Shown: positions 11,298-33,447 of the stretch, in pieces
Layout: every line of letters begins with the position of its first letter
How positions within the stretch are numbered: the first letter of the stretch is position 1
DNA from: a virus
DNA: 33,447 nucleotides
IMG/VR virus record: IMGVR_UViG_3300018019_000025
Coordinates: 1 to 33,447 of that record
Direction: 5' to 3' (one strand)
Notes under the pieces: generated by a model
The model's database searches: none
The model's input: only the letters and a program-made list of their open reading frames with translations
Told to the model about the DNA's origin: nothing
Translations under genes and position numbers: made by a program

Positions 11298-11978
11298 TCA
11301 TGGAATCGCAATAGCAGATTTTCGATGATTCCCTATATTTCCGTGGTCTTGGACGGAAATTCTCTCCCTGGAACGGATAAATACGATGGTTTCACTGATT
11401 ATCTGGCTGACTCTGGACTCGGAAACGCCGATGGATTCCGCGGCTTCCTTCATGCTTAGACCTTCCAAAAAGTAGAGAATCACGGATAATCGCTGGTTCT
11501 TTCGCAATCCACGCAAGGCACGCCGCACTTCGTCCCGTAACTCCATTGTCTTGCGGTCGTATACTTTTGGGTGGGAAGCATCCTGTTTCTCGTCGGCGTT
11601 TTCGTTGTAGAGAATCTTCTCCTGACGCATGACAACGACGGGTTCTTTCCGTTGTCGGACGAGTCTAGGAACCCAATCCATATTTCGCAGCCCGTCAGAG
11701 AACGACCCTGCGATCCGTCGCATGGCGAACGTCTTAAACTTCAAGCCACGCCGCTTGTCGAATCGTCGGATGCAATCCAATAGGGCTATCGAGCCGTCTT
11801 GAAACAGGTCTTGCCAATCGACGCTATCAGGCAACTTGGCGGCCTGATTGAAGGCTAGTTGCTTCACCCACGGCAGATAGAAGTTGACGAGCCTATTGAA
11901 CGCATCATCGCAGCGTCCATGCCAATAGGCCCGCCAAAGTGAGGCTTCCGTGTCGATATTCCGTGTAGCTGTGGGCAT
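11298..11978 (-). CDS. Phage RNA polymerase sigma factor, sigma-70 family (FliA/sigma-28-like)
   Basis: 226 residues. Region 2 is visible at about 55-98 (DLFQDGSIALLDCIRRFD, then FKTFAMRRIAGSFSDGLR). Region 4 lies at about 150-200 with the helix-turn-helix LSMKEAAESIGVSESRVSQI, close to the FliA consensus. Between them region 3 is reduced and charged. Such a factor redirects host RNA polymerase core to phage promoters. It sits after GroES and packaging genes and before the head genes, so it could switch on the genes to its left. Start ATG at 11978 has AAGGGG before it; a solitary CRISPR repeat ends only 14 bases upstream. Target promoters were not found by eye. Confidence 0.85.
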   Translation of the reverse strand: MPTATRNIDTEASLWRAYWHGRCDDAFNRLVNFYLPWVKQLAFNQAAKLPDSVDWQDLFQDGSIALLDCIRRFDKRRGLKFKTFAMRRIAGSFSDGLRNMDWVPRLVRQRKEPVVVMRQEKILYNENADEKQDASHPKVYDRKTMELRDEVRRALRGLRKNQRLSVILYFLEGLSMKEAAESIGVSESRVSQIISETIVFIRSRERISVQDHGNIGNHRKSAIAIP

Positions 11979-11992
11979 CCTGTCCCCTTATT

Positions 11993-12024
11993 GTTTCAAT
12001 CCACGCCCGCACACGACGGGCGAC
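11993..12024 (-). CRISPR. Solitary CRISPR repeat unit A (type I-C-like), candidate RNA anti-CRISPR
   Basis: Read on the minus strand, this 32-nt unit starts GTCGCCCG, forms a 7-bp hairpin (CGCCCGU against GCGGGCG, with one U-G wobble, loop CGUGU) and ends with GTGGATTGAAAC, the conserved 3' end of type I-C-like repeats. There is one copy only, no spacer array and no cas gene. It lies in the gap between a hypothetical gene and the sigma factor, 14 bases upstream of the sigma ATG, on the transcribed strand. It differs from unit B at two positions. Solitary repeats in phages are known as RNA-based anti-CRISPRs; activity here is inference. Confidence 0.85.
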
Positions 12025-15624: not shown

Positions 15625-15670
15625 AGTTACACCGCCTGTCCCATTGCTGCGTAGGCCGTTGCCCGTGGTG

Positions 15671-15702
15671 GTTTCAATCCACGCCCGCACGCGGCGGGCG
15701 AC
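15671..15702 (-). CRISPR. Solitary CRISPR repeat unit B (type I-C-like), candidate RNA anti-CRISPR
   Basis: Minus-strand 32-nt unit beginning GTCGCCCGC, with a perfect 7-bp stem (CGCCCGC with GCGGGCG, loop CGCGU) and the 12-nt end GTGGATTGAAAC typical of type I-C-like CRISPR repeats. It lies in the 85-base gap between the TerL stop and the portal start, on the transcribed strand, with no second repeat within spacer distance. Its two differences from unit A fall in the stem-loop and keep pairing. Such solitary units are known in phages as decoy guide RNAs; activity here is inferred. Confidence 0.88.
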
Positions 15703-18853: not shown

Positions 18854-20272
18854 TCAAGGAGCGTTCTGGAAAACGTCCTCTGCGGCCTTGAGTGCCTTCT
18901 TTGCGAGGGTCGGGTTCTTCCTACCCATCTCATAGAGCTTCAACACCCTATCCGAAGGTGTCGGGCTTGAAAACGGTTGAACCACCGTGGTCTGTCCCTT
19001 CTTGGCCGTAGCCCACATGGACTCGGTCGTCGCATTGCAGGAGAATGCCACGCGGGCGTATCCTTTCTCGCCCCAGCCGGTGCCCCATGAGTTGCGGAGG
19101 ATGAAGTATCCGCCGCCGGAAACCGTGGGGTCGATCTTGTAGCCGACGAGACTGACTTGATGGTCGATGCCACTCGACAGGTCTCCGACGTAGATTCCGC
19201 CGCTGTAGTTCATGAAGTCGTCGGGGCAGCCTATGCACACGCTCGTCACGCCGTAGGTCACAAGCGATTCCTCGACAGATTGCACGTCGGCAGGGCCAGT
19301 GACCGTACCGGCATATCCCCAATCTTGGATCGTAAATCCCGACGCCGTACCACTGAGTTGGCAACCCTGATTGCAAGCATTATCTTCCGGCCCGTAGGAT
19401 TGGACGGTAGGAATACCGTTGCCTTGTTTGAGCCATTGGAAGATCGTGGTTGCATCACCGCCGTCGCAAGTGCCGTCACCGTTCGGATCTAGGTCCACGA
19501 TGTACTGCACGGATAGCGGTTGCGAAATCGTCAAGTTTCCGTCCTTAATGTTGGCGCAACAGACCGTATCGACGCCTGAATGGTCGTGACACGTCCCCAC
19601 GCCGTCCTGGTCTTCGATTGCCGGGCAACCGGAGCGAAGGTCAAGGCTACTTGGAATCGTGATCGCGCCGTGTTTGGAGTGGAATGCCTTGTGGGTCAAG
19701 GCGTCCCTAACGTGCAAGGCGTTTCGGGTCTTCTCGGGAAGGATGATCAGGCCGGTAGCGTGCTTCTTCGGAACGGGCGGAATCTTGCCGATCGGTGCGA
19801 GTGTCGGAACAGGAGGAGCCGAGCAAGCCGCAGCCTGGAGTTGAATCGCCAGTTGAATTACCTGGGGCGGGATCGTACCCGGAGAAAACGAGTTGGTCAT
19901 TTCCAGGGCGATCAAGGCCATTGTGGCCTTCTGACACTCCGTGAACCGAGGCGTCCGATCAAGTCGTGCCTGCAACTTCTTTAGGTCGTTCCCGTCACTT
20001 GCGCGCCATGCGCGGACGGCAGTGGTTGCCTCCTTGAATGGCCCGATGGCCAGTCGAGAACCGAAGCCGCGGGCGACGGCCTCGGCCATGTCGGCATTGT
20101 CGTCAGAGGAAGTCTTGCATCCGCAAGGCGCGGCAAGCGGCGGCGTCGGAAGGACCGGGACGAGCATCCATTGGCCATTGACGATGAGCGAATGATCGGG
20201 GGCCGGCTGCTGGGCCAGACTTCCGGCCACGTTGCAGCAAAGCACGATTGCGAACAGGGAAAAGAATTTCAT
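18854..20272 (-). CDS. Secreted papain-family (C1) cysteine peptidase
   Basis: 472 residues from the ATG at 20272 with GGAGAAA before it. Residues 1-20 are a Sec signal peptide, then an approximately 190-residue propart. The C1 core is recognisable: Gln222 in EDQDGVGTCHDHSG and Cys228 as the nucleophile (followed by His rather than the usual Trp), then His371 in GIDHQVSLVGY, and Asn394 in ILRNSWGTGWGEKGYARV, the most characteristic papain motif. It would be exported and activated by propeptide loss. A papain peptidase is unusual in phage; it could digest host surface proteins. It lies in the unit downstream of the strong promoter. The His after Cys is a departure from the family. Confidence 0.85.
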   Translation of the reverse strand: MKFFSLFAIVLCCNVAGSLAQQPAPDHSLIVNGQWMLVPVLPTPPLAAPCGCKTSSDDNADMAEAVARGFGSRLAIGPFKEATTAVRAWRASDGNDLKKLQARLDRTPRFTECQKATMALIALEMTNSFSPGTIPPQVIQLAIQLQAAACSAPPVPTLAPIGKIPPVPKKHATGLIILPEKTRNALHVRDALTHKAFHSKHGAITIPSSLDLRSGCPAIEDQDGVGTCHDHSGVDTVCCANIKDGNLTISQPLSVQYIVDLDPNGDGTCDGGDATTIFQWLKQGNGIPTVQSYGPEDNACNQGCQLSGTASGFTIQDWGYAGTVTGPADVQSVEESLVTYGVTSVCIGCPDDFMNYSGGIYVGDLSSGIDHQVSLVGYKIDPTVSGGGYFILRNSWGTGWGEKGYARVAFSCNATTESMWATAKKGQTTVVQPFSSPTPSDRVLKLYEMGRKNPTLAKKALKAAEDVFQNAP

Positions 20273-20318
20273 GGGTTTCTCCAAACTGAAAATGAGGTAA
20301 GGGGTTGGATGCGGGCCT

Positions 20319-20522
20319 CTACTTGGCACGCGAACAGGTCGCCGGGGCACATGCGTCCGGGGCACACGCGGCCGGGGCCTTGACGATCACGACACGCCGC
20401 AGCGGCAGGACGTGCCGGCGAGTCTGGTTCCATTGGCGGACGCGGGCCAGCGGGCCGGCTTCGACGGAACACGGGGAAAAGAGAAAACAAGCGGCAAACA
20501 AGAGGCAAGCGAGGCGTTTCAT
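20319..20522 (-). CDS. Small exported basic, Cys-rich protein
   Basis: 67 residues, ATG after AAAGGAAG. A signal peptide at 1-22 (KRLACLLFAACFLFSPCSVEAG) is followed by a basic segment (RVRQWNQTRRHVLPLRR) and a C-terminal Ala/Pro/Cys repeat (AACAPDACAPATC). It is the first gene after the promoter at 20580-20608 and is followed by the exported peptidase. No family; probably an envelope-associated peptide. Confidence 0.55.
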   Translation of the reverse strand: MKRLACLLFAACFLFSPCSVEAGPLARVRQWNQTRRHVLPLRRVVIVKAPAACAPDACAPATCSRAK

Positions 20523-20614: not shown

Positions 20615-21274
20615 CTATTGCATGGCGTCCGTTATCGGAAAGATAGATGGCAATTTTGCGTGAAGATCGCGGAAAAGTGGAATCATAACCTCTCGCATTT
20701 GCGGGTGTGCGGCGGTAGCCGTGCGAAGTCGCTGAATATGACGCCACTCGCGGAGGTTTGCCGTGACGACGATCTCTGTCTTGAGGCTATTCGGCAGGAC
20801 GGAGCGGGCTTGTTCAGGCTTCCATCCGATACCACGGAGTCGGATGTATGAAGCCTCGGAGGCAAGCATGGATTCAAACCATTGCCGTATAGCACAATCT
20901 CGGATGGTCGGTTGTTCAGAATGTTCGCCGTCGATAAGTTCCAAACACCACGGCGGGATAACGAACGTGATTCCAGCAGTCTTTCCGCCAGGTGAATAGT
21001 CGCAATACCGCGTGCTTTCTTGCGAGAAAGAGCAAAGACGATGCCGCACAAGTTCGTGCGATACGCCACGGTCGATTGTGAACTTGACCATGAGGCTCGC
21101 GTGCTCAATCACGGATTCATGGCCCCGCTTGATAAGCATTTCGCAAAATGGATCAGCGGTTTCCGGGCCGATCTTAGCCTCGCTCTTGTAGCAGCAGCGT
21201 CCCGCCCGTTCGATGATTCGCGGTAGGCCGTCAAGGTCTGTGAGGATTTCGTAGCTCGGTCGTATCAATCTCAT
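20615..21274 (-). CDS. thyX: Flavin-dependent thymidylate synthase
   Basis: 219 residues. The ThyX signature RHR-x7-S is present as RHRLCSFSQES (77-87) followed by TRYCDY, with the HESVIEHA segment (52-59) in front, typical of family members. Reaction: dUMP plus methylenetetrahydrofolate to dTMP using FAD and NADPH. It supplies thymidine nucleotides for phage DNA synthesis. Start ATG overlaps the DUF3310 stop by four bases. Length is normal for the family. Confidence 0.95.
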   Translation of the reverse strand: MRLIRPSYEILTDLDGLPRIIERAGRCCYKSEAKIGPETADPFCEMLIKRGHESVIEHASLMVKFTIDRGVSHELVRHRLCSFSQESTRYCDYSPGGKTAGITFVIPPWCLELIDGEHSEQPTIRDCAIRQWFESMLASEASYIRLRGIGWKPEQARSVLPNSLKTEIVVTANLREWRHIQRLRTATAAHPQMREVMIPLFRDLHAKLPSIFPITDAMQ

Positions 21275-22940: not shown

Positions 22941-23096
22941 CTATTCCTCTTCGTAGTCTTTCGGTTCAAACAGAAATTTGCAACCGCACTTAGGACAGAA
23001 GCACTCTCCCGCACAAGAGCAATCAAAGTCCTCTGGTGAACCGCGAAACTCGCATTCCGGGCAACCAATTTCCCATCCCTTCAACGGCACGATCAT
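22941..23096 (-). CDS. Small two-knuckle zinc-ribbon protein
   Basis: 51 residues, ATG at 23096 overlapping the stop of the helicase-methyltransferase. Contains GCPECEFRG, CSCAGECFCPKCGCKF, i.e. eight cysteines in paired CxxC form. It was probably missed by ordinary gene callers because a longer frame starts upstream. Function unknown; small zinc ribbons in phages often act as RNA polymerase or replication adaptors. Confidence 0.65.
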   Translation of the reverse strand: MIVPLKGWEIGCPECEFRGSPEDFDCSCAGECFCPKCGCKFLFEPKDYEEE

Positions 23097-26000
23097 TCCT
23101 CCCCGCCGTGGTCGCCTGAGTCGGACACGGCGATTTCTTTTTCCTCTTCCAAGGCATCGAACAGCATCGGAACGTCGCGGTTCAATGCCGCCTGCGTGCA
23201 GTAGATCACGGCGTCGGCGTGATAGCTGGCGTTCAGTTCGCAACCCATGCCGAACCGCTTGAGCTTCACGGCCCAATACGCCACACTCCCGATGCCGTCG
23301 AAAGGATCATAGACCACTTCCCCTGGCATCGTGAATTGCGTAATCAAACGCTTGATGATATCCTCCTGCAGGGGACAGTTCTTGACAATACAGCCTTCCA
23401 CCGTATAGCTCTCGTCCTCTTCCACGCGTAGATTCCATGTTTCGACGCATTCCGAAGGTTCGGCGGATCGAACGGTCTTCCATGCCCCATCTTCGACGAC
23501 AAATGGAACTGTTACCCTACTGAGTTGCCTATCAGTTGGATCATCGAAGCAGAATGCGTAATCCTGCTGACAGTGAACAGTCCTTCCTTGGATCGTAGCT
23601 TCCCGTTCCGGTCGCCCACGGTAGATGCTGGCGATAGCCCCGTAGACCCGCTGGGCAAGCATGGCCATTCCGAGAAGTAACGCCTTGGAAACGCTACTAC
23701 CTGTGAAGCGTTTCCGCTCGTCTAAATAATGTCCGTCCCCTGACAGGTATCCATCAAGTAGAATCTTGGCGTGGGCGGGTGGAAGCGTAAATGCTTCCGG
23801 TGGGAGATGCTTATTAGCCGCCCCTCTTCCGCACTTCGCTAGGATGCTTCGGATTGCGAAATCTTCATCCCGCAGAGTGATTTGCATTCCTGTGCCAACA
23901 TCGTGCGGAACTCCCGCGTGGACGCCAAGTGTCTCAACAAGATACTCAGTCTCATGGTAGCCACAACTGATCGTGTAGCTCAACACCTGACCGTCGCGTC
24001 CTTCGTGGCCTCCCTTGTGACCATCGGCAAGCCAGCGTCCGACAATCCACCAATGATGCATGCTGTCGTTGTGCGGAGTCTCGACTGGAGGTAATTTGAG
24101 ATTGACGAAATGGCCCACCGTCTCAGATGCTTCAACCCAGAGAGGATCACGCTTGATCGCGTCAAGACGCCGTTTGGCTCTCGCCCAAGGAATCTGTCTC
24201 ACCTTGCGAGTCCATAGCTTGTGGTCTGGCGTCAACTTCAAGCCGGGAACGCCTTGTGCCAGCAATTCCACGGTTTCACGTATGCCAGTACTCTGGCTGA
24301 CGATTACTTTTCTCCAACGGCCCATGTGGGTCAAAACCTCGTCTCCAGTAACGACGGTTTCGATTGGGATGTACCCATGCTGCCGCGTGAGAACAAGAGA
24401 CCCAACGGCAACGCAGAGGTGCATGACACGCCCGGTTCTCTCTTGGAGCATGTTCAGCGTCCGCATCCGTGCAACGTCGCTCCACACGTCCGGGTGCGGG
24501 CTGTGCGGCGGCATGACCATGAACGTAGATGGCAACCGCTTGTCGCGTTCCATCAACTCGCCTAAGTTGACGTGGTGCTCGAAGTCATAGACCGTCGAAA
24601 GGCACTCTTCTTTCCAGCGGCGGTAGATTTGTGCGTGCGGCAGGCTGTCCATATCTTCCGGCGTCAGAAAGCGGTTGCCGCTGCTTCGCATGTAGCCGTG
24701 GGCGTCAAGTTGCCAGCGCGCCCGCGAGTAGCCCGTACCCGGCACTACCTTGCCGCCGTCGTAATCGTAGGGGCCGATATGCCCGTCCGGGAACTCCGTG
24801 TCCGGCTTGCTCTTGAGAACAGGATCGTCCGCGTAGCCGTTCGATAGATCGCTCGGCGGCTTGCGGAACAACAGGACGTATTCCGGCACTCCGCAACCCA
24901 TGCGGCTCCCGTCCTTGCATTGTTCGGACCAGCCTAGCCGGTATGTCTGGTTGTTCTCCCGCACAACGTCCGTCGTGACGGTCTTCATCCCCAGGAAGGC
25001 GAATCCATGCTTCATGTAGTGGGCAATGGCTTCCGCGTGGAATGGATGAAGCGTCTGGAATCCAAGGCCGGTCAATCCGCCCGGTACGATCCTGTCCTTG
25101 ACGTGGATGCAGCAAACTCGGCCGGGGCGAAGCACGCGGAGCAGGTTCGGCGTCAGAAAGTCCATCTGTGCCCAAAAGGCGTCGTTGGTTTCACTCTCTC
25201 CGAAGTCCGCGTAGTTTGCGGAGTACTGATATTGGAATGAGAAAGGAATACTGGTGATAATTAACGATACCGTGTCTTCCTTCATGGCTGCCGTTTCCAG
25301 CACGGTATCGTTATTGACGAGTCGCCAGTTCTCTCCGGTTTCCTCCACCCGCTTGATGCCCATGCCTTGTTGCAGGGCCTTGATCTTGGAAGCGGACGCC
25401 AGGCCGTGCTCGCGGATGATCTCGGCCATCTTGCTGAGTTGCTTCTTGTGCCGTTCCCACTTGGCTTCAAGCACGTCGCGGATGCCGGATTCAGCCTCGG
25501 TGTAGATGATGTCGATGGTGACAGGCTGCTCTTGTAGGAACCTATAGATGCGGTGCATGGCCTGGGCGAACAAGGCGAACTTGTAGCCGATGCCGACGAA
25601 GATAGCCCGGTGGCAATGCTTCTGGAAGTTGCACCCCTGCCCCAGCATGGATGCCTTTGAGGATAGATACGGAATCGTACCGTTAGCGAATCCCATGACG
25701 GCGGCCTCGCGTTCCTCCCATTTCTGTGTGCCGTAGACCGATGTGCATTCCGGCAGGGCCTTGTGAATCGCTTCCCGTTCCTTTTCCAGGTCGCACCAAA
25801 TCAGGAAGTGCTCGTTCGGAGATTCCGCGATGATCGCCTTCATCTTGGCGATACGATCCGCCAAGCTGTCCCGTTTCTCGGCGGCGGCCTGCGATAGACC
25901 GGCGGCGGCGTCCTTCCATAGCTTCTTCTGCCCGTCGCGGTCGATGGCGGCCGTGTCGTTGTTTGTCGGCAGTTCGTGCCAATTCACCGTCATTGGCGGA

Positions 26001-26797
26001 AGGATGTAGCCCTCGTCCGAGTAGCCAAGATCGCTCGGCGTGGACAGGAACGTCGCCCAAGTACTGACCCATAGCCAGAACTCTTCCGCCTTGTTGGCGT
26101 GCAACGTCAGATGGTCGGCCTTAGTCGAGTCACGCTTGAAGAACCTGGTCTTAGCCTCGCCTGTTGGCATGACGCCAAGCCAGTCCGCGTAGGCCAGTAG
26201 CTCGATGTATTCGTTCGGGTCCGGGGTCGCCGTCGCCACAAAGCGGAATGTGCTTGTTCCCTCAAACAGGCCCATGAGCTTACGAAAGGTCAGCGTCGAT
26301 CCAAAACCGCGCAGGATGGCCGCCTCGTCCAGGCTCACTACATCGAATCCGCGCGGGTCGAGTTTTCCGTTGCGTACCGATTCGTAGTTCGTGACGTAGA
26401 TCGGCGTGCCAAGGTCTACCAGTTCCTTCTGGTTGACCTGGCTTTGAAGATCGTCCATGTGCTGAATGAAGCACGTTCGCAGTCCGATCATGGCGGCATC
26501 GTGGGCGAACTCCTGGCGGACGCCGAGGGGACACACGATCAAGGCTTTCGACTGCGGGCCGAGGTGCTTGGTGATGATGCGGCAGATTTCCAGCTGGATC
26601 AGACTTTTGCCGAGGCCAAAGTTAGCGAAGATTGCCCGGCGTCCTCCTTGGACTGCCCATTGGACGATTGCTTTCTGGTGCGGCTTCAGAAGTGGGTGAA
26701 TGTCTTCCAGCTTGCATTCGCAGCCGGCGTCCTTAGAGATAGACACCTTATCTTCAAGGAACTTCTGATAGGCGGCAAGGTCTACGGTCGTGCTCAC
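23093..26797 (-). CDS. Fusion of SNF2-like helicase and N4/N6 DNA methyltransferase, interrupted by an intein
   Basis: 1234 residues from the GTG at 26797, which is preceded by GAGGAGAAATT and overlaps the previous stop by GTGA. Helicase part: FGLGKS (60-65, Walker A), SLDEAA (155-160, Walker B), QAMHRIYRFLQ (motif VI) in the C-terminal lobe. Methyltransferase part: TSIPF (515-519, the motif IV variant of TSPPY), LLRVLRPGRVCCIHVKD, then, after the intein, CPLQEDII (from 1141) and DPFDGIGS (1164-1171, motif I). The motif order IV then I is the beta class. Removing the intein joins MHL to CPLQ. Likely role: a translocating DNA modifier protecting phage DNA. Confidence 0.82.
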   Translation of the reverse strand: MSTTVDLAAYQKFLEDKVSISKDAGCECKLEDIHPLLKPHQKAIVQWAVQGGRRAIFANFGLGKSLIQLEICRIITKHLGPQSKALIVCPLGVRQEFAHDAAMIGLRTCFIQHMDDLQSQVNQKELVDLGTPIYVTNYESVRNGKLDPRGFDVVSLDEAAILRGFGSTLTFRKLMGLFEGTSTFRFVATATPDPNEYIELLAYADWLGVMPTGEAKTRFFKRDSTKADHLTLHANKAEEFWLWVSTWATFLSTPSDLGYSDEGYILPPMTVNWHELPTNNDTAAIDRDGQKKLWKDAAAGLSQAAAEKRDSLADRIAKMKAIIAESPNEHFLIWCDLEKEREAIHKALPECTSVYGTQKWEEREAAVMGFANGTIPYLSSKASMLGQGCNFQKHCHRAIFVGIGYKFALFAQAMHRIYRFLQEQPVTIDIIYTEAESGIRDVLEAKWERHKKQLSKMAEIIREHGLASASKIKALQQGMGIKRVEETGENWRLVNNDTVLETAAMKEDTVSLIITSIPFSFQYQYSANYADFGESETNDAFWAQMDFLTPNLLRVLRPGRVCCIHVKDRIVPGGLTGLGFQTLHPFHAEAIAHYMKHGFAFLGMKTVTTDVVRENNQTYRLGWSEQCKDGSRMGCGVPEYVLLFRKPPSDLSNGYADDPVLKSKPDTEFPDGHIGPYDYDGGKVVPGTGYSRARWQLDAHGYMRSSGNRFLTPEDMDSLPHAQIYRRWKEECLSTVYDFEHHVNLGELMERDKRLPSTFMVMPPHSPHPDVWSDVARMRTLNMLQERTGRVMHLCVAVGSLVLTRQHGYIPIETVVTGDEVLTHMGRWRKVIVSQSTGIRETVELLAQGVPGLKLTPDHKLWTRKVRQIPWARAKRRLDAIKRDPLWVEASETVGHFVNLKLPPVETPHNDSMHHWWIVGRWLADGHKGGHEGRDGQVLSYTISCGYHETEYLVETLGVHAGVPHDVGTGMQITLRDEDFAIRSILAKCGRGAANKHLPPEAFTLPPAHAKILLDGYLSGDGHYLDERKRFTGSSVSKALLLGMAMLAQRVYGAIASIYRGRPEREATIQGRTVHCQQDYAFCFDDPTDRQLSRVTVPFVVEDGAWKTVRSAEPSECVETWNLRVEEDESYTVEGCIVKNCPLQEDIIKRLITQFTMPGEVVYDPFDGIGSVAYWAVKLKRFGMGCELNASYHADAVIYCTQAALNRDVPMLFDALEEEKEIAVSDSGDHGGEE
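23378..24415 (-). other. Intein with LAGLIDADG homing endonuclease
   Basis: 346 residues. The first residue Cys begins CVAVGSLVLT, typical of block A. TPDH (62-65) is block B, IVGRWLADG (124-132) and LLDGYLSGDG (219-228) are the two LAGLIDADG helices, and VETWNLRVEEDESYTVEG (about 324-341) is block F. It ends KN, then Cys of the extein. The penultimate His of most inteins is Lys here. Insertion is between the motif IV and motif I halves of the methyltransferase, immediately before the conserved CPLQ. Confidence 0.88.
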
Positions 26798-27033
26798 AAT
26801 TTCTCCTCTTTGATTCCGCTGATACGGTGGTTTGCATCCGAATTTGCCCGCTTGGCGATGTCCGAGTTGGCCGGTCGCGGTTGCCATGCTTCGCAAGAGC
26901 CTGCCCCACGCTGTGTGACAACGACCATTAGCCCGCTCTTGCGGCAAAGACGTTTGACGGTACGATCTGTCGTGTACCGTCGCGTGCCGGCTGCTGCCCA
27001 GCAGTTCTTGCAGGTATTGGATTCCTGTTTCAT
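26794..27033 (-). CDS. Small basic cysteine-containing protein
   Basis: 79 residues, with ATGA overlap upstream and GTGA overlap downstream. The N-terminus has CKNCWA, later CRKSG and SCEAW; the protein is basic (KEEKL end). Likely a zinc-binding nucleic-acid protein. No family recognised. Confidence 0.55.
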   Translation of the reverse strand: MKQESNTCKNCWAAAGTRRYTTDRTVKRLCRKSGLMVVVTQRGAGSCEAWQPRPANSDIAKRANSDANHRISGIKEEKL

Positions 27034-29992: not shown

Positions 29993-32242
29993 TTAAAAGT
30001 CGTCGGGCGGTGCGGAAGTCGCCCCTGCCCGCTTCGCTTTCCCCGCCGACACGATCCTTCCGTACACGTCGCCCGGAAGTCCTATGCTGCGATTCACGTT
30101 TACGAGCACCCTGCCGATGTGGTTCAATCGTTCGGGCGTGCCGGCCTTGTGAATGTCCTCTAGCATCCGGCTTTCAAACTCCGTCACGTTCTTCTTCGCG
30201 GAAATAAGTGCCGATGCGTCGGCCCCGCTCTTGACCCAACTATGGTCGATGCCTTTCAATGCCATGACCTGTTTGAACGTCGGACCTTTCGGTTCCCAGT
30301 TTCCCTCGTCGATGCCGTTCTTATATGCCACGTCCTCTAGGCTCATGCCCTTTTGAAGCTGGTCGATGATCCGCCCCGCCTGCTTCTTCGTCAGCAGCGT
30401 GTTGCGTATCGCAAGCCCCAGGAATTCCATGAAGTGATACTGCGGCTCAGTGGCTTCGTTTGTGCTGGCCTGGCTACCGTAGCCTACCTCATGGGCGGTG
30501 TACTCGGCTTCCGCCCCCGCCTTCGCCCGTCTCTCGGCCAGTTCGCGGGCGTGTGCCTCCGCTCGTTCCCGTTCAGCCTTCGCACGGGCCTTTGCTTCCG
30601 CGTCTTCTCGTTTGGCTTGCTCAATGGCTCCCTCTACGTCGGCCTCTTCGTCTATGCCTGTTGACGTGAGAATGTCGCGGGCCCGCTGTACGATCTTGTC
30701 GGGCAAGCCTTCGGCGTATATCTCGACCGTCGATGCACAGTCTGGTAGGCCAGTGATGCCAACAAGGTCAACGACAAGGCAGAAAGGCTTCGTTTCCGCT
30801 ATGGCTGCTAGACGTTCTTCTTTCGTCTTTCCTCCGTCTACCGTCTTGCGGCGCGGCCGGCAACCGCGTCCTTTCATTTGCTCCGCTAGACTGCTGGCCT
30901 CTTTGCTTACTGGCCGGAAAACCGCCACGCACTCTATGTCAGGATCGTTGTAGCCCTCTCTGCATAGCCCGCAAATAGACAGAAATTGAAACTCACCAGA
31001 CTTGTGACCTGCATAAATCGGATTACGGTCGCTTGTGCTGCCGTCTAACTCTTGGGCTTGATTGCTCTTATCGATGTCGAAAGCCTCTATCAGCCTACCG
31101 CACTTGCAAGTTGCCCCATCACCTATCAATAACGTCGGATACCATGCTGTCTTACCGCAGGTGCAAACCGCTCGGCTCCTGGCGTTAATGAACGATGCTA
31201 CGTCCTTCGCCATTTGCACAGTAGGTGAGAAGATGAGCGTCCGCCGGTCCTCCACCATATCGAGCAATGGGCCTACTAGAGTGGCAAGCGTTTTCTCGTT
31301 TCCTAGCTCTCTCTCTAACTGTCCTTCGTCAAAGTCGTTTCCGATCTTTCCGAGAGTCTTGAAGTCTACCCCCTTGACTTCGATGTACCGCTGTTTGTAC
31401 GGTACGGCCCAGCCGTCCAATACTCCGCACATTTGTCCGGGCTTCATTAGCGGCAGATCAAGTGATATGCCTGGAAACATCTTGTCCCCGATACTCACTC
31501 CATCCGAACGCTTAGGTGTCGCGGTCATGCCTGTGCGGCGTGACAATGGATTCTGATCGAACCAATCGACTAAGTGCCCTACTTGCTTCAATGCGTAACT
31601 GAACTTATGAGCCTCGTCGCAGGCTATCAGCCAGTTGTATTTCAACGGGTCATACTTGTGTACCCGGCTCCATCCTCCGCGTGCTGCTTCTGGTTCGGCG
31701 TTTAAGCGGGCTATTTCGTCTCTGGCAACTTCCGGGGCGATGTCGTGCTTTTGCAGCATCTTCAAGATGCTCTTGATCTTCTCTTTAGGAACGCATCCCG
31801 TTTCTATCCCGTATTCTAGCAAGGCGGTTTTTTGTTCCTCTGTCGGTGCCGGCCTAAGTGCTAGCGATTGACGGGTAGCCACGATGATCCTCGGAACATA
31901 CTTCGGATCGAGTAGCGTTGCTGTCCCCATTTCGATCTGCGGTTCCCCCCAATCGGTTCCAAGATAATCCAGTACTTCAAGGCTGAATTGCTTGACAAGT
32001 TCCTCTTCGTAAGAGAGGATCATAGCCCGGTAATCATCGCCGCGTTGTAGCCAAGTGTCGATCTTGAGACAGGTCATCAAGCTCTTGCCGCAACCAGTGA
32101 ACCCGCGTGTGAGTACACCTATTACGCCGCTATCCCATAGGCGGAAAGTCTCGTCATGGTCCGTGATTTGGTAATCGCGGGGAACGATGCCTGCCCGGCT
32201 ACGGGGCTTCTCCGGTTCAGGGAATAAGGAGAGGTCGGTCAA
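29993..32242 (-). CDS. Superfamily 2 DEAD/DEAH helicase with N-terminal clamp-binding-like motif
   Basis: 749 residues from a TTG at 32242 overlapping the upstream stop by TTGA. Walker A GFTGCGKS (47-54), DEAH box (208-211), SAT-type motif GMTATPKR (about 240) and motif VI QMKGRGCRPRR are visible. A zinc knuckle with CTCG and CKCG lies in the second lobe. About residue 555 starts a charged Ala/Glu/Arg coiled coil (EAKARAKAERERAEA), then a winged C-terminal part. Residues 3-7 read DLSLF, close to the sliding-clamp motif QL(S/D)LF. Probably replicative or recombination helicase. Confidence 0.8.
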   Translation of the reverse strand: MTDLSLFPEPEKPRSRAGIVPRDYQITDHDETFRLWDSGVIGVLTRGFTGCGKSLMTCLKIDTWLQRGDDYRAMILSYEEELVKQFSLEVLDYLGTDWGEPQIEMGTATLLDPKYVPRIIVATRQSLALRPAPTEEQKTALLEYGIETGCVPKEKIKSILKMLQKHDIAPEVARDEIARLNAEPEAARGGWSRVHKYDPLKYNWLIACDEAHKFSYALKQVGHLVDWFDQNPLSRRTGMTATPKRSDGVSIGDKMFPGISLDLPLMKPGQMCGVLDGWAVPYKQRYIEVKGVDFKTLGKIGNDFDEGQLERELGNEKTLATLVGPLLDMVEDRRTLIFSPTVQMAKDVASFINARSRAVCTCGKTAWYPTLLIGDGATCKCGRLIEAFDIDKSNQAQELDGSTSDRNPIYAGHKSGEFQFLSICGLCREGYNDPDIECVAVFRPVSKEASSLAEQMKGRGCRPRRKTVDGGKTKEERLAAIAETKPFCLVVDLVGITGLPDCASTVEIYAEGLPDKIVQRARDILTSTGIDEEADVEGAIEQAKREDAEAKARAKAERERAEAHARELAERRAKAGAEAEYTAHEVGYGSQASTNEATEPQYHFMEFLGLAIRNTLLTKKQAGRIIDQLQKGMSLEDVAYKNGIDEGNWEPKGPTFKQVMALKGIDHSWVKSGADASALISAKKNVTEFESRMLEDIHKAGTPERLNHIGRVLVNVNRSIGLPGDVYGRIVSAGKAKRAGATSAPPDDF
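32196..32241 (-). repeat. Direct repeat, copy 1 (start of helicase gene)
   Basis: 46-bp segment ending at the first codons of the helicase. It matches 32677-32722 at 44 of 46 positions; both differences are synonymous in the duplicated reading frame. Confidence 0.9.
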
Positions 32243-32610
32243 CTTAAATCCACCCTACAAGTCTGAGTTGTGCGGCAACGATATGCTGCGGTACACAGCC
32301 AATAAATTGTGAGTCTTCTGGATTTCTTTTCCGTTCGGATCAGCTTCGCCTCTTCGAGCCTCTCGACTGCTGCCATCACGGTCTTCGGGTCCAAGCCGGT
32401 TTCGGTGGCAATCTTGCGGATGCCCGGCCAGGCTTTTCCTGTCTCGTTGTCGGCGTGATAGCCAGCGATGGCGACGTACACGGCCACACCTGCTGACTTG
32501 ATCTTTGGCATTGCGGCTAGGACGTGCTTGGGGACTATTGCAAACGGCCGCTCGAACCTGGTCGGTAGCGGCTCTTCGGGTCCGTGGTATCCGTGGTAGG
32601 GTTTCTTCAT
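32239..32610 (-). CDS. Winged-helix DNA-binding protein (phage replication-organiser type)
   Basis: 123 residues, ATGA overlap upstream. After a His/Pro-rich head, AVYVAIAGYHADNETGKAWPGIRKIATETGLDPKTVMAAVERLEEAKLI gives a winged helix-turn-helix, followed by a basic wing. The GKAWPGIRKIA-type motif is common in phage O/DnaD-like replication initiators and helix-turn-helix 36 proteins. It lies directly before the helicase, with which it overlaps, so origin or helicase loading is suggested. Confidence 0.7.
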   Translation of the reverse strand: MKKPYHGYHGPEEPLPTRFERPFAIVPKHVLAAMPKIKSAGVAVYVAIAGYHADNETGKAWPGIRKIATETGLDPKTVMAAVERLEEAKLIRTEKKSRRLTIYWLCTAAYRCRTTQTCRVDLS

Positions 32611-32723
32611 TCACAATCTCCGGGGGCCGGGCCGACGGCGCGGGGAGGATGGAGCCCGCGGCCGTCAACCCGGCATCGGCTACGGGGCTTCTCCGGTTCG
32701 GGGAATAAGGATAGGTCGGTCAT
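32607..32723 (-). CDS. 38-codon ORF duplicating the helicase N-terminus (clamp-binding-like peptide)
   Basis: It starts at the ATG that overlaps the upstream stop and ends in an ATGA overlap with the winged-helix gene. The first 16 residues (MTDLSLFPEPEKPRSR) are identical to the helicase start although the DNA differs at two silent positions. The remainder is Arg/Gly/Pro-rich. It is either a duplication remnant or a small translated peptide presenting the DLSLF clamp-like motif. Confidence 0.5.
   Translation of the reverse strand: MTDLSLFPEPEKPRSRCRVDGRGLHPPRAVGPAPGDCE
32677..32722 (-). repeat. Direct repeat, copy 2 (start of the 38-codon ORF)
   Basis: Second copy of the 46-bp segment, 481 bases upstream in the transcript. 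See copy 1 for the match. Confidence 0.9.
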
Positions 32724-33447
32724 ACGAGTTGCTGATAGGCGTTCCGAGTCACCATGCCGGTCTTATGGCAGTCCTTGCAACCGGCAGCGTCCCCTTTACA
32801 ACGGGGACACGGTTCGGCGGGCTTGCATGATCGGATGGTTTCCAGCACGGCGGCGAACTTGTCGATTGCCCCTTGCTTGCGGTTCAGGTCTTTCGCCCAG
32901 GGGCCGTCAAGTTTTTCGATCTCCTCGTCAAAGACCTTGCGAATCGCCCGGCAGATGGCTTCGATCTTGGATTGTTCGGCCTTGATCTTCTCTTCAATGG
33001 TGAGTGGGGCCACTTCACCAGTCTCGATGGCATTACGAAGGGTCTGCCGTCCAGCCAGGATGGAAGCCAGCAAGGCCGCTTGCAGGTCTTCGTCGAATTC
33101 CGCGAACTTCGCCCGCTGCTCTTTGGTGGCCTTGATCTTAGCAGCGATGGGACCGTCTTCGTCGGATTCACCGTCATTCTCCCACGGTGCTCCGTCCCCA
33201 TTTTCTGATGGCTCGGGTGCGGGAGGCGGCGGTAGATGACGTTCGACCACGGCTTCCACGGCGGCGGCGGTGATAGGCTCGCCGGTCTTCTCGGATTCCT
33301 TAACAACTTCCGCCCACGCCTTAGCCTGCTCTTTCGGTGTTTCGAGTTGTGCCAGAGGGCGAGCCTCACGTTCTGTCTTAGGTAGCGTTACCCCCCCTTT
33401 GCTGTTTTTGTCCCCCATGGGGGACAAATTTTCGACGCCGCCAGATC
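32720..33447 (-). CDS. ParB-like/zinc-ribbon protein, 5' end outside window
   Basis: The frame is open to the window edge, so the real start lies outside; an internal TTG at 33427 would give 235 residues. The visible segment LPKTEREARPLAQLETPKEQAKAWAE resembles the linker after the ParB-nuclease-like domain in phage and plasmid proteins (LPxxExQxRPLxxLxPxxQxxAWxxAV). A Pro/Glu-rich region, a helical domain and a DnaJ-like zinc knuckle CPRCKG...CKDCHKTG near the end follow. It probably binds DNA. The family is suggested, not proven. Confidence 0.5.
   Translation of the reverse strand, partial: SGGVENLSPMGDKNSKGGVTLPKTEREARPLAQLETPKEQAKAWAEVVKESEKTGEPITAAAVEAVVERHLPPPPAPEPSENGDGAPWENDGESDEDGPIAAKIKATKEQRAKFAEFDEDLQAALLASILAGRQTLRNAIETGEVAPLTIEEKIKAEQSKIEAICRAIRKVFDEEIEKLDGPWAKDLNRKQGAIDKFAAVLETIRSCKPAEPCPRCKGDAAGCKDCHKTGMVTRNAYQQLV
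33407..33428. other. 22-bp perfect palindrome
   Basis: TTTGTCCCCCA followed by its exact complement, centred on CATG, in the ParB-like gene. Could be an operator or a hairpin; coding is uninterrupted through it. Confidence 0.6.

Follow-up and report, generated by a model that had tools for sequence, protein, structure and literature searches.

The 5' end of a RadD-like helicase gene is present twice in a metagenomic virus contig, and the extra copy opens an ORF of 38 codons. The explanation that best accounts for the whole arrangement, and which we hold to be very probable, is that a gene insertion stranded the old start of the helicase as this short ORF; the tail of the helicase is, in addition, a putative docking motif. 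The argument for the insertion is built on the repeat, the gene arrangement in relatives and a clean empty site. The contig is IMGVR_UViG_3300018019_000025, positions 1 to 33,447; this whole stretch is called the window below and all coordinates refer to it.

Repeat and gene order

The two copies of the repeat (32677-32722 and 32196-32241) lie in direct orientation at a spacing of 481 bp and are identical at 44 of 46 positions. In length and quality this pair tops all direct repeats of the window, the runner-up being 41 nt at 85%. The latter (11984-12024 and 15662-15702) is found near gene ends, its copies 3.7 kb apart, and its shared core GTTTCAATCCACGCCCGCAC resembles a CRISPR repeat by eye. 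The copies of the 46-bp repeat differ at one Leu codon (CTA/CTC) and one Pro codon (CCC/CCT), silently in each case, and have a protein stretch of 16 residues in common, MTDLSLFPEPEKPRSR. Their start codons differ, the short ORF beginning with ATG and the helicase with TTG.

The minus strand carries, one after the other, the upstream ORF (33427-32720), the 38-codon ORF (32723-32607), the HTH gene (32610-32239) and the helicase (32242-29993), connected by three successive 4-nt stop/start overlaps, ATGA, ATGA and TTGA. The stop of the upstream ORF overlaps the ATG of the short ORF (ATGA), the TGA of the short ORF overlaps the ATG of the HTH gene (ATGA), and the helicase start is joined to the HTH gene via TTGA. 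A first-pass annotation of this DNA had described a 46-bp direct repeat with two silent differences and a short ORF coupled on both sides. Both descriptions are confirmed, including an ATGA junction at each end, with the correction that the next gene encodes a 123-aa HTH protein and not the helicase.

The upstream ORF (32720-33427, minus strand) has 235 aa from a TTG. Its frame is open to the contig end, and it probably represents only the C-terminal portion of a larger product; its homologues before the helicase in relatives have 276-453 aa. The C-terminus is a zinc knuckle, CPRCKGDAAGCKDC. Pfam gave nothing above the cut-off for the family. By eye, the N-terminal part appears ParB/sulfiredoxin-like in L011, L012, L014, L020 and L021 (motifs ILDGRHKHKA and DGRRRE). 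The gene, whose zinc-knuckle C-terminus is likewise unmatched, accompanies these helicases as a conserved partner.

A second contig of the same phage (L009, IMGVR_UViG_3300037843_000174) is 99.97% identical over 20,442 bases, with 7 mismatches; it covers 6600-27041 of the window and so stops short of the repeat region. A terminase search returned this near-identical contig and one weak match, nothing more.

Several other minus-strand genes of the window could be assigned. A sigma-70-type factor with regions 2 and 4 is encoded at 11298-11978, a papain-family cysteine protease with a signal-peptide-like start at 18854-20365 (Peptidase_C1, E 4.1e-30), and a ThyX thymidylate synthase at 20615-21274 (Thy1, E 4.5e-45). 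An ORF of 1284 aa (23093-26947) combines an SNF2-type helicase domain with an N6/N4 DNA methylase; between its two domains lies an intein-like stretch that starts at about CVAVGSLVLTRQHGYIPIE and ends with VEGCIVKNC.

The helicase and its relatives

The helicase (29993-32242, minus strand; 749 aa) matched ResIII/SF2 in Pfam above the cut-off and also phrog_16. The core motifs GxGKT/S, DEAH, TATP and QxxGRxxRP are present (G50-x-G52-K53, D209EAH212, T240ATP243 and Q455MKGRGCRP463) and are conserved in A1/A2. RadD is the nearest solved structure by sequence profile in the PDB (E 1.7e-25) and by fold (E 4.4e-15). On these matches we call the protein RadD-like, which is as far as the evidence reaches. 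Some related helicases carry intein-like insertions, at differing sites (L011:3390-6650, L014:4422-7076 and L026:2230-5133). That of L011 interrupts the Walker A motif and is of the LAGLIDADG type (Hom_end_hint, 2.8e-15), that of L014 lies after GLC and before REGF, and that of L026 has no Pfam match.

Searches with the full-length helicase, with the HTH protein or with the peptide pattern of the repeat returned no relatives; a conserved fragment of the helicase core did, and was followed by alignment profiles, all in other viral contigs. The 18 related loci comprise 17 that were read at the N-terminus and placed in a tree with the window, plus the more distant L015. The nearest four relatives have 52-60% identity to the window helicase. 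A genome scan with the helicase alignment gave one distant helicase and no others.

An upstream-type gene stands directly before the helicase in 15 of the 18 related contigs; it was recognised by tblastn in 11 loci and by eye, via the CxxC...CxxC C-terminus, in L015, L020, L031 and L043. The helicase has other neighbours in L032, L034 and L047. Upstream gene and helicase overlap by ATGA in L013, L015, L020, L025 and L043, overlap by 1 nt in L018, L019, L021 and L023, and are separated by gaps of 8-12 nt in L011, L012, L014, L026 and L028 and of 54 nt in L031. Nine junction bases, CTCGTATGA, are common to L043 and the window. The helicase tree nests the window within the family, as sister to the empty-site locus L013 (support 100/99).

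The insert

The 435 bp between the repeat copies (32242-32676, minus strand; 58.9% G+C) were found only in the window and are absent from all 18 related contigs. They contain, in this order, a hairpin, a GGAG and the HTH gene. The G+C-rich hairpin (32626-32674, minus strand) has a 19-bp stem with one bulge and makes up most of the non-repeat tail of the short ORF. Its folding z is -4.05, with 0 of 200 shuffles folding as well, and it is the lowest-energy 64-nt stretch found on the minus strand of the window. An intrinsic terminator was rejected because a T tract is absent, and a known RNA family was rejected as well. The GGAG (32618-32621, minus strand), a Shine-Dalgarno-like site, lies 7 nt 5' of the ATG of the HTH gene.

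The HTH gene (32239-32610, minus strand) encodes a winged HTH_36 domain whose match exceeds the Pfam cut-off. No HTH gene stands in front of the helicase at the 18 related loci, and no homologue of the protein was found in the 16 related records searched, several of which are fragments. A scan of the minus strand of the insert, limited to consensus promoters and terminators, found none.

Origin of the arrangement

Deleting 481 bp, the 435-bp insert together with one copy of the repeat, gives a single helicase ORF of 749 aa with an ATG start and an ATGA overlap. Because the relatives have direct junctions, several of them ATGA and one with the same CTCGTATGA, we take the ATG of the short ORF to be the ancestral helicase start. 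The sister position of the window to L013, which has an empty site, argues that the insertion is derived. We infer from this that a segment was gained rather than lost many times; recombination is the presumed route.

In the ancestor, an ATGA overlap would have linked the zinc-knuckle gene directly to the gene of the RadD-like helicase. The 435-bp segment, with its hairpin and HTH_36 gene, would have entered at the 5' end of the helicase gene and duplicated 46 bp of that end. The upstream copy would have kept the old ATGA start but, after 16 codons, would have continued into insert DNA as far as a chance stop at the HTH start, which would produce the 38-codon ORF. The downstream copy would have stayed joined to the helicase and now forms its functional 5' end, with a new TTG start that draws on the last base of the insert and overlaps the HTH stop. 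A sibling phage of HTH-helicase order may have supplied the segment by recombination, or it may have been end-joined, with duplication; 46 bp is long for a transposition target duplication. The searches turned up neither a donor nor a homologue for the insert as a whole. The two silent differences may have arisen once the duplication was in place, or the donor may have brought them in.

The short ORF

The product of the short ORF (32607-32723, minus strand) has 38 aa, MTDLSLFPEPEKPRSRCRVDGRGLHPPRAVGPAPGDCE. Its first 16 codons are the original helicase start, and codons 17-38 are 22 codons of inserted DNA, mostly the hairpin. This non-repeat tail stays open in 76% of base shuffles of the same composition. 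The first-pass annotation had read the silent differences as a hint of selection on the peptide. Of all single changes that the shared codons allow, however, a quarter are silent, so that two of two would be silent by chance with p about 0.06, and selection acts on the helicase copy regardless. The annotation had also named conservation in related phages as a check, and the ORF occurs in front of the helicase at none of the 18 related loci. Given the hairpin DNA in the tail, the shuffles that stay open, the p value and the absence from relatives, it is unlikely that the peptide was selected for. The short ORF is probably the scar of a gene insertion, either debris or at most a translational relay, and we infer that it has no peptide function of its own.

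A relay is possible, if rather doubtful. Ribosomes would end the upstream gene, restart at the ATGA, translate the 38 codons, melt the hairpin and pass to the HTH gene and then, via TTGA, to the helicase; only the openness and the ends of the short ORF would matter, not its peptide sequence. The chain of three 4-nt overlaps is unbroken, and the strongest hairpin of the strand lies inside the short ORF just before the HTH start, as such a role would have it. However, the HTH gene has its own GGAG past the hairpin, the first overlap is inherited and the second can be chance, and none of the 18 relatives carries the insert, so that conservation cannot speak for a relay.

We consider it very unlikely that the phage uses the peptide to inhibit its host by occupying the beta clamp, as the first-pass annotation had suggested, or as a decoy in competition with the helicase for a common partner. 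The LF tail is indeed common to the peptide and to the helicase family, in which it is conserved, both copy differences are silent, and a free pentapeptide of the clamp consensus, unmodified, can bind the clamp of E. coli with an affinity in the tens of micromolar (PMC6204406). Yet the last 22 codons are insert and hairpin DNA, position 1 of the motif lacks Gln and the expected affinity is weak, and the ORF, missing from all relatives, is explained by the insertion. A selected inhibitor peptide is unsupported. That the stranded start was reused as a free decoy peptide against the helicase and host proteins at the sliding clamp, forming a self-tuning regulator of replication in phage or host, seems to us highly improbable.

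We give very little credence to an ancestral HTH gene that was lost in all relatives, with the short ORF as a later duplication of the helicase start. Neither a donor nor an excision scar is known, which would suit this history, but it requires a loss in every other lineage, and the window is nested as sister to L013, which has no HTH gene; parsimony disfavours it. An assembly artefact joining strain variants is just as improbable: although the region lies near the end of a metagenomic contig and a single contig spans it, the HTH_36 gene of the insert is complete, brings its own ribosome site and is joined to its neighbours on either side by clean stop/start overlaps, and there are two sites at which the repeat copies differ.

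The N-terminal tail of the helicase

Besides the insertion, the preferred reading holds that the helicase tail is a putative docking motif. The helicase core begins at about residue 20, and the tail before it varies in length and sequence. At residues 3-8 of this tail, the window and its 17 tree relatives carry Leu-Phe, with the Leu in 18 of 18 and the Phe in 17 of 18 (L028 has LL). The window has MTDLSLF; examples from the relatives are METLF, MSEATLF, MNLPLF, MADVTLF, MELF, MIQQDLF, MQHQAELF, MQLLF, MQLSLL, MQKSLF, MQQFLF and MEQDLF, and the tail of the distant L015 is MSQKLFLF. The longer N-terminal peptides are MTDLSLFPEPEK in the window, MQHQAELFPEEK in L023 and MQLSLLDNPIEK in L028. Among about 94 other ORFs of at least 200 codons in the same loci, two have LF within the first 8 residues, both signal-peptide-like; as the sequences are related, this comparison is a description and not a probability.

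In the predicted model of the helicase, mean pLDDT is 34 for residues 1-10, residues 1-13 are under 50, and the mean is about 88 from residue 21, with the core at about 90. A tail packed against the helicase core was rejected, the LF segment being disordered in the model. Nor is the tail general among RadD-like helicases of phages: seven from outside the family were compared, and that of Salinibacter M31CR41-3 alone has it (MSQLF). A disordered tail with two fixed residues reads as a linear docking motif, and the conserved Leu-Phe tail, judged by sequence and model, probably serves the helicase for docking to a protein.

The consensus of the bacterial clamp motif, QL[S/D]LF, has been revised to Q-phi-x-[L/M]-[F/L] together with a six-residue form (PMC9690074, PMC13254535). 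Its Gln increases affinity and is not absolutely required, whereas the final residues are critical (PMC13254535). Position 1 is Asp in the window. Gln is found there in 5 of the 18 members and is absent from 13; the five (L021 QQDLF, L023 QAELF, L028 QLSLL, L032 QQFLF and L047 QKSLF) have the pattern Qxx-L-[F/L], and L023 and L028 fit the revised consensus in full. A phage-encoded beta clamp (C-terminal domain family) was found in none of 17 records, control genomes having matched, so any clamp partner would be that of the host. We put the chances at about even that the helicase tail is a docking motif for the host sliding clamp; the main alternative is some other partner. The first-pass annotation had likened the shared N-terminus to the clamp box and proposed that the helicase uses it for recruitment. 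The likeness holds for the Leu-Phe and breaks down at the Asp that the window has in place of Gln; recruitment accords with a conserved LF in a variable, disordered tail and with the five Gln-bearing members. Overall the annotation's interpretation is partly supported, in that conservation lends strength to a putative clamp-type motif in the helicase itself.

These data illustrate how a gene insertion can imitate a selected micro-protein, complete with shared N-terminus, silent differences and tight coupling, which makes it a trap for the annotation of small ORFs. The by-product may matter more: these RadD-like helicases of phages form a family that has diverged widely and yet retains Leu-Phe in a disordered N-terminus. 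The conserved LF and the Qxx-L-[F/L] of five members suggest that the helicases are recruited to a hub of host replication, for which the sliding clamp is the most plausible candidate, and the tails provide a short list of candidate clamp-binding peptides.

Comparison with known systems

E. coli RadD (YejH; PDB 6jde, 7r7j, 8h5y) is an SF2 DNA repair helicase known for RecA-dependent acceleration of strand exchange (PMC8887467). The window helicase has the same SF2 core motifs, with 17-19% identity over the fold alignment and a global TM-score of 0.35-0.45, a low value of the kind to be expected when a helicase has two domains and additional regions. It differs by its N-terminal LF tail, a Cys-pair insertion and its own C-terminal region. 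The HTH protein is similar to the N-terminal domains of phage replication initiators (phrog_270, phrog_391); their profiles are about 300-380 aa long, whereas the 123 aa of the window protein correspond to the HTH part alone.

Moron-type insertions in phages place a small gene in one phage that is missing between the same two genes in relatives. The insert of the window is alike in the empty site of the relatives and in its well-formed ribosome site, and differs in that no consensus promoter or terminator of its own was found and in the 46-bp duplication of its neighbour's 5' end. From the bacterial beta-clamp motif the helicase family departs in the Gln, missing in the window and most members, and in the location of the motif at the extreme N-terminus; the DLSLF of the window nevertheless fits four of the five positions, and the terminal Leu-Phe is kept, in a flexible tail.
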